Source: Deltaproteobacteria bacterium (GTDB lineage Bacteria; Desulfobacterota; DSM-4660; Desulfatiglandales; HGW-15). Taken from it: a stretch of 40,601 bases of DNA. The notes beneath the pieces were generated by a model. It saw nothing but the letters and a program-made list of their open reading frames with translations. It did no database searches and had not been told where the DNA came from. Location: assembly GCA_016930795.1 (NCBI GenBank), contig JAFGFY010000070.1:1-40601 (forward strand). Direction: 5' to 3'. Position numbers and translations under genes: made by a program. Shown here piece after piece: positions 23,389 to 32,864 of this stretch (its first letter is position 1; each line of letters starts with the position of its first letter).

Positions 23389-25392
23389 ATGAGACGGACA
23401 AAAAGAATGATCACTATTGTTTTTGCCGGTCTTCTCCTTTTAACCATCGGGTGCGCGACCACCCCTTCAAAGCGTCCCGCGATCGGAGAAAAGCCACATT
23501 ATAATAGAACCGTCGCCGTCGGAGACATCCACGGCAGTTTCAGCGGGTTGGTGTCGATTCTCAGGGAAGCCTTCCTCATCGATGACGGGAACCAATGGAT
23601 CGGAGGCGACACTCTGCTGGTGCAAACAGGTGATTTGTTCGATAGGGGGTCGGATGTTCGACCGGTCATGGACTTGTTGATGTCGCTTCAGAGCCAAGCG
23701 GAAGCCTCGGGTGGAAGAGTCGTGGTCCTTTTGGGAAACCATGAAGTATTGAATCTCGTCGGTTCCCTGACATATGTAAACCCGGATGCTTATCGGGATT
23801 TTGTTGGACCTGAGTCTGAAGAAAAACAGCGTCGCGCGTTTGAGCGACGGCAGGCTGTTTTCGGGACTTCCGCCGGCACCGAAAGCGAAGATTCGGAATC
23901 CCGAACACAAGATTGGATGGCCACGCATCCTCCCGGATTTGTAGAATATACCGAGGCCCTGGGCCCGGAAGGGCGTTACGGCAAATGGCTTCGAAGCCAG
24001 CCGGCCATATTCAAGTACGGCGGCACTATCTTTGTTCATGCCGGCATCAGCCCGGCCTTCACGGATCTATCCCTGTCCGCGATCAATGACGATGTGGCTT
24101 CTCAGATAGCTGAATTTGATCGTATCAAGTCCTACTTGGTACAAAAAGGGTACGTGGAGCCCTTCTTTTCTATTTCAGAGGTCATACCCGTAGTGAACGC
24201 GATTTTAGAGTCTGCCGATACCAAGGATCTATCAACTCCCGATCTGGAGACGATTGATCGTTTGAATGAAAGCAAACCCTATCTGGATGGATTTTACGAT
24301 GCATCTTCCCTGATGAATGATGAAGGCCCCCTATGGTTTCGAGGGTTCGCTCAATGGAGCGATGAGCAGCTTGTCTCGTATCTTCCGGAATGGCTTGACA
24401 AAAACAACGCCTGGCGAGTGGTCGTCTCGCACACCCCACAGGCGGACGGAAGGATTCAAGCGAGGCTGGTCGAAAGCCTCTTTCTTATCGACACCGGAAT
24501 GCTCTCCGAATTCTATAAAGGCGGACGTCCCTCAGCATTGGAAATCAAAGACGACGATGTTACGGCGTTGTACGAGTCTGGAGAACGGGTCGTATTTCCC
24601 GCGGCCAAGATCGATTACGTCCCAGGGCATGTCTGGACCGCCAAGGATGGAACCCCTCTCCCGTTTGAGACTCTGGATGAGATCGAGGCATTTTTACTCA
24701 CCGCTTCACCGACGTTCCTAGAAACGATTCGTGCCGGTGTCAATCGACCCAAAAAGTACCTGCTCCACAAAGACGAGCTTCAGACAAGGGCTATCTTTCG
24801 ATGGGAAAGCGAGACCGGCGGGACCATAACCCCGGAGTTCTCCCACAAGACCCGGGGTTTTCGTGACAGTTACCTGAGTGAAATCGCTGCCTATGAAATG
24901 AATCATATTCTCGGCCTCAACAATCTTCCTCCCACGGTCCTGAGAACGATTGACAACAAAGAAGGCACCCTTCAATTATGGGCAGAACAGACCACGCGAG
25001 ATGATGATATGCAACGGAAGGGGATACTTCCACCCGCGGTGACCCCTTGGAACAGGCAAATGTCGGACATGCGGGTATTCGACAACCTGATCAATAACTT
25101 TGATCGGAACCAGACCAATATACTGATCGATGAGAATTGGCAGATGGTATTGATCGATCATACCCGATCCTTTGCCCGAGACAAGACCCTATACCTACCT
25201 GAGAAGATCTCTCGTTGCTCCAGGGGACTGTGGTATGCCCTTCGCCATCTCGATGAGGGGCATGTCAGGGCACTCCTATCCCCTTACCTGAAGACGGATG
25301 AAATCGATGCCTTGTTTGTCCGACAGCAACGGCTCATTGAGTTGATTCAGGATCTCATTATCCGCGATGGAGAAGAGGAAGTGCTTTTTTAA
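23389..25392 (+). CDS. Putative lipoprotein: PPP-type metallophosphoesterase fused to a PI3/4-kinase-like domain
   Basis: GGGAGG SD before ATG 23389; lipobox LTIGC. Phosphatase motifs GDIHG, GDLFDRG, GNHE. C-terminal SEIAAYEMNHILGLNNLPPTVL, LINNFDRNQTNILIDENWQMVLIDHTRSF. Confidence 0.8.
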   Translation: MRRTKRMITIVFAGLLLLTIGCATTPSKRPAIGEKPHYNRTVAVGDIHGSFSGLVSILREAFLIDDGNQWIGGDTLLVQTGDLFDRGSDVRPVMDLLMSLQSQAEASGGRVVVLLGNHEVLNLVGSLTYVNPDAYRDFVGPESEEKQRRAFERRQAVFGTSAGTESEDSESRTQDWMATHPPGFVEYTEALGPEGRYGKWLRSQPAIFKYGGTIFVHAGISPAFTDLSLSAINDDVASQIAEFDRIKSYLVQKGYVEPFFSISEVIPVVNAILESADTKDLSTPDLETIDRLNESKPYLDGFYDASSLMNDEGPLWFRGFAQWSDEQLVSYLPEWLDKNNAWRVVVSHTPQADGRIQARLVESLFLIDTGMLSEFYKGGRPSALEIKDDDVTALYESGERVVFPAAKIDYVPGHVWTAKDGTPLPFETLDEIEAFLLTASPTFLETIRAGVNRPKKYLLHKDELQTRAIFRWESETGGTITPEFSHKTRGFRDSYLSEIAAYEMNHILGLNNLPPTVLRTIDNKEGTLQLWAEQTTRDDDMQRKGILPPAVTPWNRQMSDMRVFDNLINNFDRNQTNILIDENWQMVLIDHTRSFARDKTLYLPEKISRCSRGLWYALRHLDEGHVRALLSPYLKTDEIDALFVRQQRLIELIQDLIIRDGEEEVLF

Positions 25393-25567: not shown

Positions 25568-28500
25568 TTAAGGAGCATGGGCGTATCTTTCAGTAAGTTC
25601 CCTGATTCGCTCTGTCATCATTTTCAGGACACCCCTCAGAACATCATGCCGGCTCATCATGATATCATAGAAATTCTCTCTATTGATCTTCAGCAGTAAT
25701 GTTTCATCCATGGCGGTTGCACTCGCCGAACGAGGACTACCGTCTAGAAGAGCCATTTCGCCGAAATAATCCCCTTTGACGTGCCGCCTAACCTCCAATT
25801 GGTCGATGTGAATGCGTATTTCTCCGCTAACTATCACATAGAGACAATCCCCTATGTCACCCTTGCGAAACAGGGTGGAACCCTTCTCTAAGCGCTCCTC
25901 CTCCATAACCTGTGCAACGTGAAAGAGCTCCTCACCGGAAATCCCCTTAAACAGGGACGTACCTTTTAAAATGATGGTCTTCTCAAGAGTTGAAAGCATG
26001 TTCGACTCCTTTATTGCTTCCCGAAAACGGTCTTTAGGAAATTCCCGTAAATCATTCAATACGGTTTTCTCCCGTGCCACATCACGACCTATGATTTCGC
26101 TCTGCAGTCCGTCATCGGGAAAAGATAGCCAATCGACTTCTTCCAATACAGCCACAAGGCCTTGACTCAGGGTATAATCCAGGGCCACACCTGAGGACCA
26201 CTCATTCGTGGATTGAATCCATTGAAGTAATTTTTTGTCTAAGTCATTGGGCAAATCGCGGAAATAACGCCGGCCGGCCAGGGAGCGGTCTTTGATGGAC
26301 ATGGGCTTTATCAACGGAATCATCCAGCCGCTCTCATTCTTGGGCAGGATGTTTTCTAGGACTTCCAGGAGATCCGGTATTTTGCTCGTGTCCCCTGATT
26401 GCACATATATCAAATAGGTTTCAACGGGTGTCTCCGGTACGCGCAACACAAGCAGTTTAAACAATATTACAGCAAGCTTTCGAATTTCGTTCTTGAAGAG
26501 ATCTCTGAGCAGCAGGCTCTCAGATGTCTTCTCAATTCCGCTCAACAGCTGGTAGTCCTCATAAATATCCCGCGCGATTCTTGACCCCTCTTTTTGGAAT
26601 TGGGTCAATACACTAGCGGGAAGGGGATTTTGCCTGGCGATCTCAAGTAACGTATCGACGGTTTCTGCCTGGATGGGTATTGACGACTCTTCGAACAACG
26701 AGACAAGACAGCGAATCGAATTGAGATCGGGGTAAACTCTCAGTGTCCGGATGATCTCAATCTGGTGATACATGGATGTCTCCGGGAGGTAACAGGCACG
26801 ATCCATCGCGGCAATCACTTTATCCGCGGGATATGTCTTTAACAGACCTCGAGCGCTTGTTCGAAGCTGGGGACAATCCAAACAATCAATTACATGGGGT
26901 ATGAGATTTTCATCTCCCCTGTGATGAACGATCTTCAGAGTCTCCATACGAATACGAATGGATTCGCTTTCTAAGCATTCCCGGAGTTGTGCGTCGGTGA
27001 GAAGCGTTGGAATATAAAGAAGCATTTGCAGGACGAGAATTTTCTGTGTTTCATCTTCACTCTTGAGCAATTCACCAAGGGTTGAGCGAGCGACTTCACA
27101 GAACTCTCTGTCCATAATCAGGATAGCGATGGCTGCCGCGGCCCTTATGTCGGCCTCTCCTTCCATTTCTCCTTCAAGCATTTTTCCTAAGCTTGGGATC
27201 ATCTCTGTCATGTGCCTTTTTCCGGCGATGATCAGAGCATCCTTGGTCAGCGGTCCTTGTTCTTCGATCTTTGCCCGGATTTCCGTATTTGAAACGATTT
27301 CGGGTTGTTCAGCAGTCATGCTTAGGATTTTTTTCTGTACCAGAGGAGATGCCTCCCAAAAGAGTCGATTGAGGGTGTTACGCCATGGAATCAATGACAG
27401 GTTCTCAATCAGTTCCAGGACAAAGACTTGTTGGGCTGCTTCATCGCTGTCGAGTGCTCGGTCAATGGTTGCGATAATGTCGCTGTCAGTGGTATCAAGT
27501 CGCATTCGTTCAAAATCCAAACGACGTTTTTCAATGGCCAACATCAGTGATGAAACGTATTCTCTCTTCAGACGATAAGCACTCAGCACCCAGATACCGA
27601 TGGCCACCAAAGCGATAAAGCTAAGGAGACGCAGCAAAACAGGATAGCTCAAATGCCATGTAGTGAGCAATGCATAGATCAAGACTCCCGTGAGCCCCTG
27701 CAAGCCGGTTCTAATCGTGCCCTCGATAAAAAGCTTGCGGTTCTGTTTGCCGTCAGGGCCTACAGGGACCCATAAAAGCTCCAATGAAGTCTTGTTGACA
27801 GTGAACTTGGTAATCTGTTCCAATATTTTCGTGATCAAGGAACTGTAAAACAGCGGATTGATGAGGAGAGACAAAGAACCTATGCCCAGACCAGCGGGCA
27901 GGGCGAGCATGGCCGGCAAAACACCGAACCTGGTCAGTATCCAGCCCGTCAAGAATACCTGCGCAAAAAGAGAAATGGCCCCTGTCAAAGCGTAAAAGAT
28001 GCCAAAGAAGCTGGCGAGATCCTGTTCCATGGGAAAGAATTGATTGGAGAGAATCAAGAATTGGTACTCCACAATCACGGTAGCCACCGCAGCAGCCCCG
28101 ACCGCAAGGGCTATCATCCTCATATAACCGTCTAAGAATCCGGTTTTGTCTCTTCTCTTCTCCTTCCTTGATTTCTCCGATACGCCTCGGATAAAGTATG
28201 GCCGTATCAGCCACGCCATCAGGACACAGCAGAGAATAAATCCGGCGGCCAAAGTCAGCAAATAGGCAGATCCGAATCTATTGACAAAGGAGGGAATGCT
28301 GGTGCCAATCACGATTCTGGCCACCGGACTGCCGGCCAGAATGATGCCGAATAACCGTTTGGCCTGTCGTGAATTAAACACCATTCCAGCCGCCACCCAG
28401 AATTGGACGCTAATGACTGTCGTGATGACATCAACCCATATATATAGAATCGGAATAACCCCCCCCTCAAGATGAGATTGGATCAATATTAGGCTTAAGA

Positions 28501-28801
28501 TAAAGGTCAAACTACTTAAGGTGATACCGGGAATGAGATCCAGACGTTTCGCCAAGAAATTGTAGACGACCACAGTGAGGGCTACGGCACAGGCCGCCGC
28601 AAGGAACATAAGAGGAAGATAGGATATGTCGAACCTGTTAAGGAAATAGGCGTCTCTAGCGGTTTTGCTTACGGTGAGTGTGGCACCAAAGAAAAAGAAA
28701 TAGGTGAAGAGGAGAACAACAGGCTTCCCCTCACCTTCTTTGATGTTGAGGAGTCTGTAGAGGTGTTTCATGGGCTCACTGTAATTTGAGAGGGAAGACA
28801 A
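25568..28801 (-). CDS. ATP/ADP translocase (Tlc)-like transporter + HEAT-like repeats + cyclic-nucleotide-binding domain
   Basis: N-terminal ~12 TM; HEAT-like middle; C-terminal LFKGISGEELFHVAQVMEEERLEKGSTLFRKGDIGDCLYVIVSGEIRI...GDYFGEMALLDGSPRSASA. Confidence 0.85.
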   Translation of the reverse strand: MSSLSNYSEPMKHLYRLLNIKEGEGKPVVLLFTYFFFFGATLTVSKTARDAYFLNRFDISYLPLMFLAAACAVALTVVVYNFLAKRLDLIPGITLSSLTFILSLILIQSHLEGGVIPILYIWVDVITTVISVQFWVAAGMVFNSRQAKRLFGIILAGSPVARIVIGTSIPSFVNRFGSAYLLTLAAGFILCCVLMAWLIRPYFIRGVSEKSRKEKRRDKTGFLDGYMRMIALAVGAAAVATVIVEYQFLILSNQFFPMEQDLASFFGIFYALTGAISLFAQVFLTGWILTRFGVLPAMLALPAGLGIGSLSLLINPLFYSSLITKILEQITKFTVNKTSLELLWVPVGPDGKQNRKLFIEGTIRTGLQGLTGVLIYALLTTWHLSYPVLLRLLSFIALVAIGIWVLSAYRLKREYVSSLMLAIEKRRLDFERMRLDTTDSDIIATIDRALDSDEAAQQVFVLELIENLSLIPWRNTLNRLFWEASPLVQKKILSMTAEQPEIVSNTEIRAKIEEQGPLTKDALIIAGKRHMTEMIPSLGKMLEGEMEGEADIRAAAAIAILIMDREFCEVARSTLGELLKSEDETQKILVLQMLLYIPTLLTDAQLRECLESESIRIRMETLKIVHHRGDENLIPHVIDCLDCPQLRTSARGLLKTYPADKVIAAMDRACYLPETSMYHQIEIIRTLRVYPDLNSIRCLVSLFEESSIPIQAETVDTLLEIARQNPLPASVLTQFQKEGSRIARDIYEDYQLLSGIEKTSESLLLRDLFKNEIRKLAVILFKLLVLRVPETPVETYLIYVQSGDTSKIPDLLEVLENILPKNESGWMIPLIKPMSIKDRSLAGRRYFRDLPNDLDKKLLQWIQSTNEWSSGVALDYTLSQGLVAVLEEVDWLSFPDDGLQSEIIGRDVAREKTVLNDLREFPKDRFREAIKESNMLSTLEKTIILKGTSLFKGISGEELFHVAQVMEEERLEKGSTLFRKGDIGDCLYVIVSGEIRIHIDQLEVRRHVKGDYFGEMALLDGSPRSASATAMDETLLLKINRENFYDIMMSRHDVLRGVLKMMTERIRELTERYAHAP

Positions 28802-30296
28802 TGGAAAACGTGCTTTGTCCGGAGGAAAGGCATTCTGATTTATCCCTAATAAATTGACATTTTGAAATTCTGCCCGGACATAGATCTTCGTCTTTTGGAA
28901 TATATTTACAGCGTGAGCTTTTGAAATCCAAAGAGAATCCTAAACGTTCAGAAAAGCATTTTGTCCTAAGCAGATCTGATCCGGACCCTCCGGCGTTGAA
29001 CTCATAAGCCCTTTTAGACGAATACAACTCAGTCTTCTGTGTATGAAAAAACCCGCCGAAAATCAGTTGTTGGTTATCAGGGGTAATCCCGACACCGAAA
29101 TCCTGAAAACTGACCCGGATTTCGTCATCTTTTTTTCTGGCAACGATTTTGATTGTCCCCTCATCCGGGGTGTTCTCAATGGCATTTCTGAGCAAACCCG
29201 AAAAAACCTTGTCCAGCACATTCCTGTCCATATACACGGAAAGGTCCTTATCTAAATCAAGGGTGATGTTCAATTCTCTTTGTCCCATAGAGGCGATGGA
29301 GCGTTCATATACATCACTCAAGAAAGGAGTAAGAGCGATTTGCTCCATATGGACTTCTTCCTTATGGAATAAGGCCTCCAGTCGTTTGCAGATATACTCC
29401 AACACTTCAGCGCCTTCGCCCCGATATGATTCATTGAATTCCCAAGCCAAATCGGCAGCGCTTTGCAGAAGACCCAGAATCCCCTCTTTTTCTTTCACTC
29501 GTTTCTGATTGAGGATGTCATCAATCCTTGCCTGCAGATCGAGCAAACGTTTTACATTCCGACGGCCACGATCCAGCATGTTATCAAGGCCTGAAATATT
29601 CGCCTCATTGAGTTCTCTCTCAACACGACTGAGGATGGCCATGATCACGGCCAAAGGTGTTCTGAGTTCATGGGATAGATGGTTAATCACCTTTTCTTTG
29701 GCCAGATCCAGAACCCTAAGATCGTCGTAAAGCTTGGCGTTTTCAATGGCAATAGCCATATAGTGAGACGCGGAAATAAGAAATGCCTGATCTTCTTTAT
29801 TGAAATCACCTGTCTTCTTATTCAATGCCTGGAGTGTTCCAATACACTTTTTTTCTCGATTGATAAGCGGAATGCTCAAGATGTTTCGGGTCTTGAAACC
29901 GGTCTTCTTATCGACCTCCGGCAAAAACCGGGGATCGCTGTACGCGTCATTGATGATCAGGGGGCTCCTGTTTTGAAAAACCCAGCCCGCTACCCCTCTG
30001 TCTTTGGGGATCCGGACTTGGTCTTTCTTAAGGTCTGTTGACACCATAGACCATAATTTCTCCCCTGCAGAGTCAATCAAGAACACCGATGCTTTTTCCG
30101 TGTTCATGACCTGATTGGTTTGTTCAATGATCAAAGGAAACAGGGCCTCGATGTCCATTTCAGAGGTCATAATCTGACCCAATTCAAACAGCATTTTTTG
30201 ACGCCGGATCGTTTCCGCGGCAATCCGTTCACTTTCTCTTCGGAGAGTTCCTCTTCTTTCGTCCTGTGATTTCTTACCGTTCAAGGTCGTCACCAT
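28776..30296 (-). CDS. GAF-domain histidine kinase with Cys-rich insert
   Basis: GAF region; HLSHELRTPLAVIMA H-box; LLRNAIENTPDEG N-box; FGVGI; CKYIPKDEDLCPGRISKCQFIRDKSEC near the C-terminus. Confidence 0.9.
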   Translation of the reverse strand: MVTTLNGKKSQDERRGTLRRESERIAAETIRRQKMLFELGQIMTSEMDIEALFPLIIEQTNQVMNTEKASVFLIDSAGEKLWSMVSTDLKKDQVRIPKDRGVAGWVFQNRSPLIINDAYSDPRFLPEVDKKTGFKTRNILSIPLINREKKCIGTLQALNKKTGDFNKEDQAFLISASHYMAIAIENAKLYDDLRVLDLAKEKVINHLSHELRTPLAVIMAILSRVERELNEANISGLDNMLDRGRRNVKRLLDLQARIDDILNQKRVKEKEGILGLLQSAADLAWEFNESYRGEGAEVLEYICKRLEALFHKEEVHMEQIALTPFLSDVYERSIASMGQRELNITLDLDKDLSVYMDRNVLDKVFSGLLRNAIENTPDEGTIKIVARKKDDEIRVSFQDFGVGITPDNQQLIFGGFFHTQKTELYSSKRAYEFNAGGSGSDLLRTKCFSERLGFSLDFKSSRCKYIPKDEDLCPGRISKCQFIRDKSECLSSGQSTFSIVFPLKLQ

Positions 30297-31433: not shown

Positions 31434-32864
31434 TCAGACCATTGGGTTCTCTACCGCCCTTTCGGTTATGTTTTTGTTCTCAATCCCGATCACCACGGCC
31501 AGGGCAAACCACACGACAACAAGCCCAATACAGAAAAGCGCGAATTGGCTTGTCTGAAAAGCCAACCAGGTTGTGCCAATATAAACCAGTACAGCAGACA
31601 AAACATCTCCTGCGCGAACAAAAAAGGTGTCGGTGGCTTGTTTGGCCTTGTACTTTTCTTCTCTTGTCGTAGGCAAGAAAAGCGCGTGGCGCACTGTATT
31701 TTGGAGAGAATAATCCGTAGAGTTTTCCGCTGTCTTGGCCCAACGGATGATGGTCATGACAGGGATAAAAGCGATAACGAAATATCCGCATAAGGCAATG
31801 AAGGGCAAAACAAGCAGCGCGATTCGAATACCTAGATATTTTAGAATTCGGGAGACAAGAAATAGCTGTATAAGCAGTCCTGCCAAATTCACACCGGTAT
31901 AAAACTTGGCATAGAAGTTGCCAATATACTCTTCGGTATAGGATTGAATATATTCAGAGTTGATCTTTGCAAGGCCCTCTTCCTTCGCACCGCCCTCGAT
32001 CAGCCTTTTTTGCGCATATTCAATGGCCTTTTCTGCAATTTCAGGGTCGCCGGCAAGCTCCTCTGCTCTGTTTTGCACTGTACGACCCAAGATATACTCA
32101 CCCGTCGTATTCACCCAATTTGTGAACAACATGAGAAGAGCAATGAACAAAAGATATCTTGTCTTGAAGACGAGACTGAATGCTCCTCCTTTTTCGAAGG
32201 GTTGACTCACTTCTTTTGTTCTGTCTTCTGCTCGATCCCTGTCCGCTTTGTCGCGTGAATCGACAATGTTTGTCAGAATCAGGCTGCCAAGAAGAAGAGC
32301 CCCCGCGACAAGCAGGAGTTGGTAGACTCCCAACGGTTCAATCAGAGCGTCCGTGATCATACCTCCCAAAACAGCCCCCGAGGAGGCGCCAAACGCGATG
32401 ATGACAAAGATCCGTTTACCCGCTTCAGGCGTATATATGTCATTGGCAAATGCCCAGAATTGAGCGACCACCATCATATTGAATATGCCTAGCCACAAGA
32501 AAAATACTACGCCGAGGGGAACTCTTATGAGCGCGAGAATATAGAAAACTGCCAGACACCCAACAAAAAAACAGGTCACTGAATTGATCAACTGTCGACG
32601 GGGAAACCGACCTGCAAGCCTGGCATACAGAGGCACAATCCCAAGGAACAAGAGGGCCTGTCCCGCGGAGGCATAGCTCTTAATTTCAGCCCCTCCCCCT
32701 GTGAGAATCAAGGCCTCACGTACGGGTTTCATGATGTAATATGACGTGAGGATAAGGAATACGCTCAGAAATAGCAGGATGGCGGATCTCCCTTCACCTT
32801 TCTTGACTTCCGTAAAGAGGTTCAGGAATTTTTCTATGTTGTTTTTTGGGCGGGTTGTCGTCAT
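31434..32864 (-). CDS. NTP/NDP exchange transporter-like (Tlc/MFS) protein
   Basis: EVKKGEGRSAILLFLSVFLILTSYYIMKPVREALIL N-terminus; 12-TM pattern. Confidence 0.85.
   Translation of the reverse strand: MTTTRPKNNIEKFLNLFTEVKKGEGRSAILLFLSVFLILTSYYIMKPVREALILTGGGAEIKSYASAGQALLFLGIVPLYARLAGRFPRRQLINSVTCFFVGCLAVFYILALIRVPLGVVFFLWLGIFNMMVVAQFWAFANDIYTPEAGKRIFVIIAFGASSGAVLGGMITDALIEPLGVYQLLLVAGALLLGSLILTNIVDSRDKADRDRAEDRTKEVSQPFEKGGAFSLVFKTRYLLFIALLMLFTNWVNTTGEYILGRTVQNRAEELAGDPEIAEKAIEYAQKRLIEGGAKEEGLAKINSEYIQSYTEEYIGNFYAKFYTGVNLAGLLIQLFLVSRILKYLGIRIALLVLPFIALCGYFVIAFIPVMTIIRWAKTAENSTDYSLQNTVRHALFLPTTREEKYKAKQATDTFFVRAGDVLSAVLVYIGTTWLAFQTSQFALFCIGLVVVWFALAVVIGIENKNITERAVENPMV

Follow-up and report, generated by a model that had tools for sequence, protein, structure and literature searches.

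The animal Fam20 kinases (Fam20A, Fam20B and Fam20C) function outside the cytosol, carry four conserved disulfides and divide labour between active enzyme and pseudokinase, Fam20A being a pseudokinase activator of Fam20C (PMC5865150). Bacteria are unmentioned in the account of Fam20 by Zhang et al. 2018 (PMC5865150), appear in a review of Fam20 (PMC7948968) in the reference list only, and in a survey of the Legionella kinome FAM20 is given as eukaryotic- or Metazoa-specific (PMC9758233). On the phosphatase side, the Shewanella-like enzymes (Shelphs) are described as having GNHE and H(A/G)G separated by an insert, and as carrying the (I/L/V)D(S/T)G motif that bacterial-type PPPs have (PMC535813). 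As for the NTT-family ATP/ADP carriers, in the part of Major et al. 2017 (PMC5381601) drawn on here every characterised member serves plastids or intracellular parasites, for the most part by importing nucleotides, and no NTT-HEAT protein is among them; for the NTT-HEAT-cNBD fusions it gives no function and mentions no kinase or phosphatase partner. We found no description in the open-licence literature of a phosphatase–kinase fusion or of a kinase–NTT link, an absence that is not proof, and found no test in the literature of the transport direction of fusion-linked NTTs.

The stretch of DNA analysed here (the window) is 40,601 nucleotides long, comes from a Deltaproteobacteria bacterium (GCA_016930795.1, contig JAFGFY010000070.1) and carries the following features.

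23389..25392, + strand: Shelph phosphatase–Fam20-like kinase fusion, predicted exported, ORF of 667 aa
23389..23454, + strand: lipoprotein signal peptide with lipobox LTIGC, Cys22 predicted to be lipid-modified
23503..24579, + strand: PPP phosphatase domain of Shewanella-like (Shelph) type, by profile, motifs and Foldseek
24601..25389, + strand: Fam20-like kinase-fold domain, residues 405-667, with Arg471 (beta 3), Glu498 (alpha C), Asp572, Asn577 and Asp590
25568..28801, - strand: fusion of NTT (TLC ATP/ADP transporter), HEAT and cNMP-binding domains, 1077 aa (TLC 5.2e-7, cNMP_binding 5e-22)
28776..30296, - strand: GAF histidine kinase; its gene and the beginning of the NTT-HEAT-cNBD gene overlap
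31434..32864, - strand: NTT carrier with a single domain (TLC family), 476 aa, with relatives among the NTTs enclosed in PPP-kinase operons at other loci

The fusion ORF has a good, well-placed Shine-Dalgarno sequence, GGGAGGT, immediately 5' of its ATG at 23389, and its N-terminus, FAGLLLLTIGC, conforms to the lipoprotein attachment pattern, which predicts that Cys22 carries the lipid; by a hydrophobicity criterion, an N-terminal export signal is present in 127 of 134 testable relatives. The original prediction had been that a lipobox-bearing, exported protein here joins a PPP-type metallophosphoesterase to a kinase-like domain in one ORF, and that such a fusion is unusual. Both domains do lie in the one 667-residue frame, LTIGC and Cys22 fit a putative lipoprotein, every PPP motif is intact, and the fusion is indeed unusual; the phosphatase can now be refined to the Shelph type. 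The domain-architecture search that was proposed at the time recovered other fusions in Acidobacteriota, in Myxococcota/'Deltaproteobacteria' MAGs and in Gammaproteobacteria (mainly Halieaceae), so the architecture is not a product of chance. In the full-length AlphaFold2 model (pTM 0.63) the mutual placement of the two domains is uncertain.

Judged by sequence and by modelled structure, the phosphatase half belongs with the Shelphs. Its PPP motifs (GDIHG at residue 45, GDLFDRG at 81, GNHE at 116, HAG at 217, SHT at 347 and IDTG at 367) are accompanied by a Pfam Metallophos match (E 1.4e-10), and the metal ligands are invariant in 26 of 26 related domains. With a profile of those 26 domains, the top structure is the Shewanella cold-active PTP (PDB 2z72/1v73) at E 1e-54, the next-best PPP structures following at 4e-8, and a Foldseek search with the full-length model returned the Shewanella PTP again (6e-18). 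The fusion also has the traits in the Shelph description: GDXHG, GDXXDRG and GNH(E/D), an insert of about 97 residues that separates GNHE from HAG, and IDTG. Where it departs from the Shewanella PTP is in adding a C-terminal kinase domain and in its links to NTT carriers.

That C-terminal domain, on profile and model comparisons, is closer to the animal secretory Fam20 kinases than to HipA. As a single sequence it falls below all the Pfam cut-offs (PI3_PI4_kinase 2e-4, Fam20C 0.0025, HipA_2 0.007), reaching 17.9 bits on the Fam20C model against a cut-off of 26.8. A profile of 42 relatives matches the structures of Fam20A, Fam20C and Fam20B at E 1e-13 to 2e-9, the Fam20A and Fam20C alignments spanning both the N-lobe and the catalytic loop, and matches PI4K-II weakly (E 0.03). 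The AlphaFold2 model of the domain is confident (mean pLDDT 90.9, pTM 0.89); Fam20 structures fill the first 18 places of its Foldseek list (TMq 0.59-0.69), with PI4K-II next after them. Membership in either of the nearest bacterial families was rejected, the domain scoring 50.6 bits against the NCBIfam cut-off of 172.4 for SCO1664 (TIGR03843), still the nearest bacterial family model, and 16.2 bits against the Pfam cut-off of 27 for HipA_2 (PF20613). An SCO1664-like relative (L007) is without an evident signal peptide and without a PPP domain. Compared with Fam20, the fusion is bacterial and joined to a phosphatase; it has only Cys22 and Cys610, hence one Cys in the kinase domain, where Fam20 has its disulfides; and its catalytic loop reads DRNxxN in place of DRHHYE. 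The original prediction of a PI3/4-kinase-like domain of the HipA/SCO1664 type was thus right as to the kinase fold and the C-terminal motifs that it quoted, and has to be amended from HipA-like to Fam20-like. It had also looked for an ATP-site Lys and a metal-binding Asp: metal Asp590 and catalytic Asp572 are present, and the place of the Lys is taken by Arg471, paired with Glu498.

In the alignment, Arg471 stands at the position of the beta-3 Lys, with alpha-C Glu498, the catalytic-loop residues Asp572 and Asn577, and the metal ligand Asp590 all retained. Among 148 unique domains the beta-3 residue is Lys in 78, Arg in 42, Gln in 11 and His in 9, and it covaries with the alpha-C residue (K-E, K-D, R-E, H-Q, Q-N). 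Asp572 is kept in 131 of the 148 and Asp590 in 142, a readable catalytic Asp being absent in 17. Thirty-seven fused domains have Lys/Asp/Asp, and complete K/E(D)/D/D sites occur in many relatives. Read from these residues, the family includes predicted complete-site kinases, and other members are clear pseudokinases. In the Acidobacteriota arrays L123, L131-L133 and L158, the PPP-fused or directly coupled domain has lost the catalytic Asp (to Cys, Leu or Gln) and the neighbouring lone kinases retain K/E/D/D, an arrangement that resembles the Fam20A/Fam20C pairing and may parallel it in function. A gammaproteobacterial branch (L045, L046, L048, L049 and L050) has likewise lost the catalytic Asp and has no adjacent NTT; the phosphatase is intact wherever it is seen, as in the fused proteins of L045, L046, L049 and L050, L048 being cut by the contig start. 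For the window's protein as a putative kinase, the strongest doubt is Arg471. A WNK-like replacement Lys at residue 456 was considered and rejected: a basic residue there is common in Lys- and Arg-type members alike and so does not explain Arg471.

ATP is generally taken to be lacking for kinases that lie beyond the bacterial cytoplasm, and its scarcity there had been raised in the original prediction. A candidate answer is offered by the TLC/NTT carrier genes that flank the fusion, in the window and across phyla. The nearer of the two in the window lies tail-to-tail with the phosphatase–kinase gene across a gap of 175 bp and has the same architecture as the NTT-HEAT-cNBD carriers of Major et al. 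2017 (PMC5381601). The two window NTTs score 29.3 and 50.3 bits on PF03219, above its cut-off of 21, and 39 of 41 aligned NTT neighbours match the same model. They are the only TLC/NTT genes of the 4.2 Mb genome, and both are within 8 kb of the fusion. Sensor histidine kinase genes, possible carrier regulators, also lie between NTT and fusion at L109 (9529-11106) and L120 (4362-6026).

Across 297 Acidobacteriota genomes, an NTT is found in 60 of the 62 that are kinase-positive against 60 of the 235 that are kinase-negative (Fisher p 2e-26, for related genomes with size uncontrolled); the two kinase-positive genomes without an NTT have the weakest kinase matches, and 49 of the 51 Shelph-bearing genomes also have the kinase. 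In Halieaceae (140 genomes, again related and uncontrolled for size), at least two NTTs are present in 27 of 31 kinase-positive genomes and in 4 of the 109 others. Adjacency and repeated recruitment are stronger arguments than this genome-level association. An NTT is adjacent to 18 of the 31 Halieaceae fusions, where 0.24 would be expected, and in 15 cases it is directly downstream on the same strand. In Seongchinamella, a cultured member of the Halieaceae, the fusion is of the complete Lys type and an NTT follows it after 4-13 bp. Where a PPP-bearing locus has 4 kb or more on each side, an NTT lies no further than 6 kb away in 23 of 31 cases, and lone-kinase loci are mostly unlinked (1 of 14); known duplicate loci were dropped from both counts, other loci of overlapping origin may remain, and short contigs hide neighbours in locus counts. 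An NTT adjoins most Acidobacteriota phosphatase–kinase loci, and one lies within 8 kb of at least 24 of the 58 strong PPP matches listed in the Acidobacteriota sample, a lower bound taken over all listed strong phosphatase matches. Operon orders include NTT-HEAT/cNBD/PPP-kinase (L030, L108, L116) and PPP-kinase/NTT/kinase/kinase (L125, L128, L129), regions L108-L146 having been picked from kinase matches and not at random. In a tree of 81 NTT domains the fusion-adjacent ones fall in several clades, forcing at least 8 label changes, so the pairing formed more than once. One inherited ancestral neighbourhood was therefore rejected as the sole cause; the NTT neighbours come from several clades and are placed upstream, downstream or tail-to-tail. 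Since fusion-adjacent genes supplied most of the NTT profile, the counts of distant NTTs may be low.

The loci vary in layout. Phosphatase and kinase occur as split adjacent ORFs at L024, L026, L130, L132, L133, L136 and L142, and the genome of the window also encodes L002, a second, lone exported kinase (51% identical). In the family to which that genome belongs, L010 and L006 each have, beside a carrier gene, a lone exported kinase that shares 58-59% identity with the window kinase domain, the carrier gene at L010 being an NTT-HEAT-cNBD gene placed tail-to-tail; elsewhere, the same two genomes have a Lys-type fusion with an NTT directly downstream (L035, L009). An FHA-GAF-SpoIIE (PP2C) protein lies between an exported-kinase array and an NTT gene at L123, L128 and L129, and at L012 (6790-8745) only a few bases separate the end of a gingipain-like gene (peptidase C25) from the fusion that follows it. 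In a Haliea genome the gene 4 bp after the fusion encodes a general MFS carrier, not a TLC protein (L041, 10701-12062), at the position where relatives have an NTT. Lone exported kinases of Acidobacteriota are also found near MacB/FtsX-type permease genes (L140, 4586-7426; L141, 10286-12787). No relatives were found on viral contigs, plasmids gave phosphatase-domain matches only, and clustering of neighbours gave no recurrent substrate gene common across phyla.

By a narrow measure, we favour reading the locus as an envelope phosphorylation/dephosphorylation module whose ATP would be supplied by a dedicated NTT carrier. Exported Fam20-like kinase domains, fused or separate, would use ATP outside the cytoplasm to phosphorylate a protein or glycan of the envelope; an exported Shelph phosphatase, fused or adjacent, would take the phosphate off; and an inner-membrane ATP/ADP carrier of the NTT family would export ATP and take up ADP in return. 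The supply could be gated by cytoplasmic regulators that are part of the carrier or its neighbours (cNMP-binding domain, HEAT repeats, histidine kinase, FHA-GAF-PP2C protein). Sequence, predicted fold, export signals, conservation and gene linkage are the observed basis of this proposal, and from them we infer NTT direction, catalysis by the Arg471 domain and the identity of the substrate. Against the module stand the Arg in place of the ATP-anchoring Lys in the window's domain and 42 of 148 relatives, with His or Gln in 20 more and no readable catalytic Asp in 17; the mostly inward transport by characterised NTTs; the rarity of NTTs beside lone-kinase loci; the tail-to-tail placement of the nearer NTT, which is not in the same operon; the 13 of 31 Halieaceae fusions with no NTT nearby and the kinase-less genomes that can carry one; and a substrate that is not evident. 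The wider claim, that in at least three phyla Fam20-like kinases, fused or paired Shelphs and an ATP-exporting NTT gated from the cytoplasm carry out reversible phosphorylation outside the cytoplasm, is put forward a shade more tentatively, as a possibility that falls just short of an even chance.

Arg471 is also what one would expect if the window's kinase-like domain, along with the other Arg, His, Gln and Asp-less versions, were a nucleotide-binding pseudokinase regulating the fused Shelph, with phosphorylation left to separate exported kinases or to none and the NTT setting a sensed periplasmic nucleotide level. The Asp-less, PPP-coupled domains of the Acidobacteriota arrays beside K/E/D/D lone kinases, the gammaproteobacterial fusions that keep the PPP without Asp572, and the precedent of Fam20A activating Fam20C (PMC5865150) all point the same way. 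However, the Arg-type members retain Glu498, Asp572, Asn577 and Asp590 together, a complete site is present in many fusions (the 37 with Lys/Asp/Asp), and we consider a purely regulatory domain unlikely, if deserving of real weight. Both domains might instead process extracellular nucleotides whose products the NTT imports, with no envelope phosphorylation signalling at all. Characterised NTTs do mostly import nucleotides (PMC5381601), and bacterial PPPs include ApaH, the NCBIfam ApaH and PrpE models both matching weakly. Such salvage is nevertheless improbable: the PPP is of Shelph type, with a protein tyrosine phosphatase as its best structure and ApaH far weaker (E 1e-7 vs 1e-54); the fusion retains the full GDXXDRG, of which the second Asp is replaced in ApaH (PMC535813); and a kinase domain with Fam20/PI4K features would not be expected. 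Finally, the same ATP supply could serve another transferase, either an AMPylator or a sugar or lipid kinase like Fam20B or PI4K-II. The rank of PI4K-II as next structural neighbour, the phosphorylation of xylose by Fam20B, the covariation of beta-3 and alpha-C residues and the existence of kinase-fold AMPylators and glutamylators lend themselves to this, but a phosphatase carried on the same polypeptide speaks for phosphate modification, and we give the idea little credence.

That genes for exported kinases, for an opposing phosphatase and for carriers of the ATP/ADP family are linked time and again provides a concrete and testable answer to the lack of ATP outside the cytoplasm. The linkage also points to bacterial relatives of a kinase family regarded in a kinome survey as eukaryotic or metazoan (PMC9758233), and to a candidate role for the NTT and NTT-HEAT-cNBD proteins of free-living bacteria (PMC5381601). 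If the module is real, bacteria would have an equivalent of the luminal phosphorylation seen in the animal secretory pathway, and the uncharacterised NTT-HEAT-cNBD proteins would gain a function.
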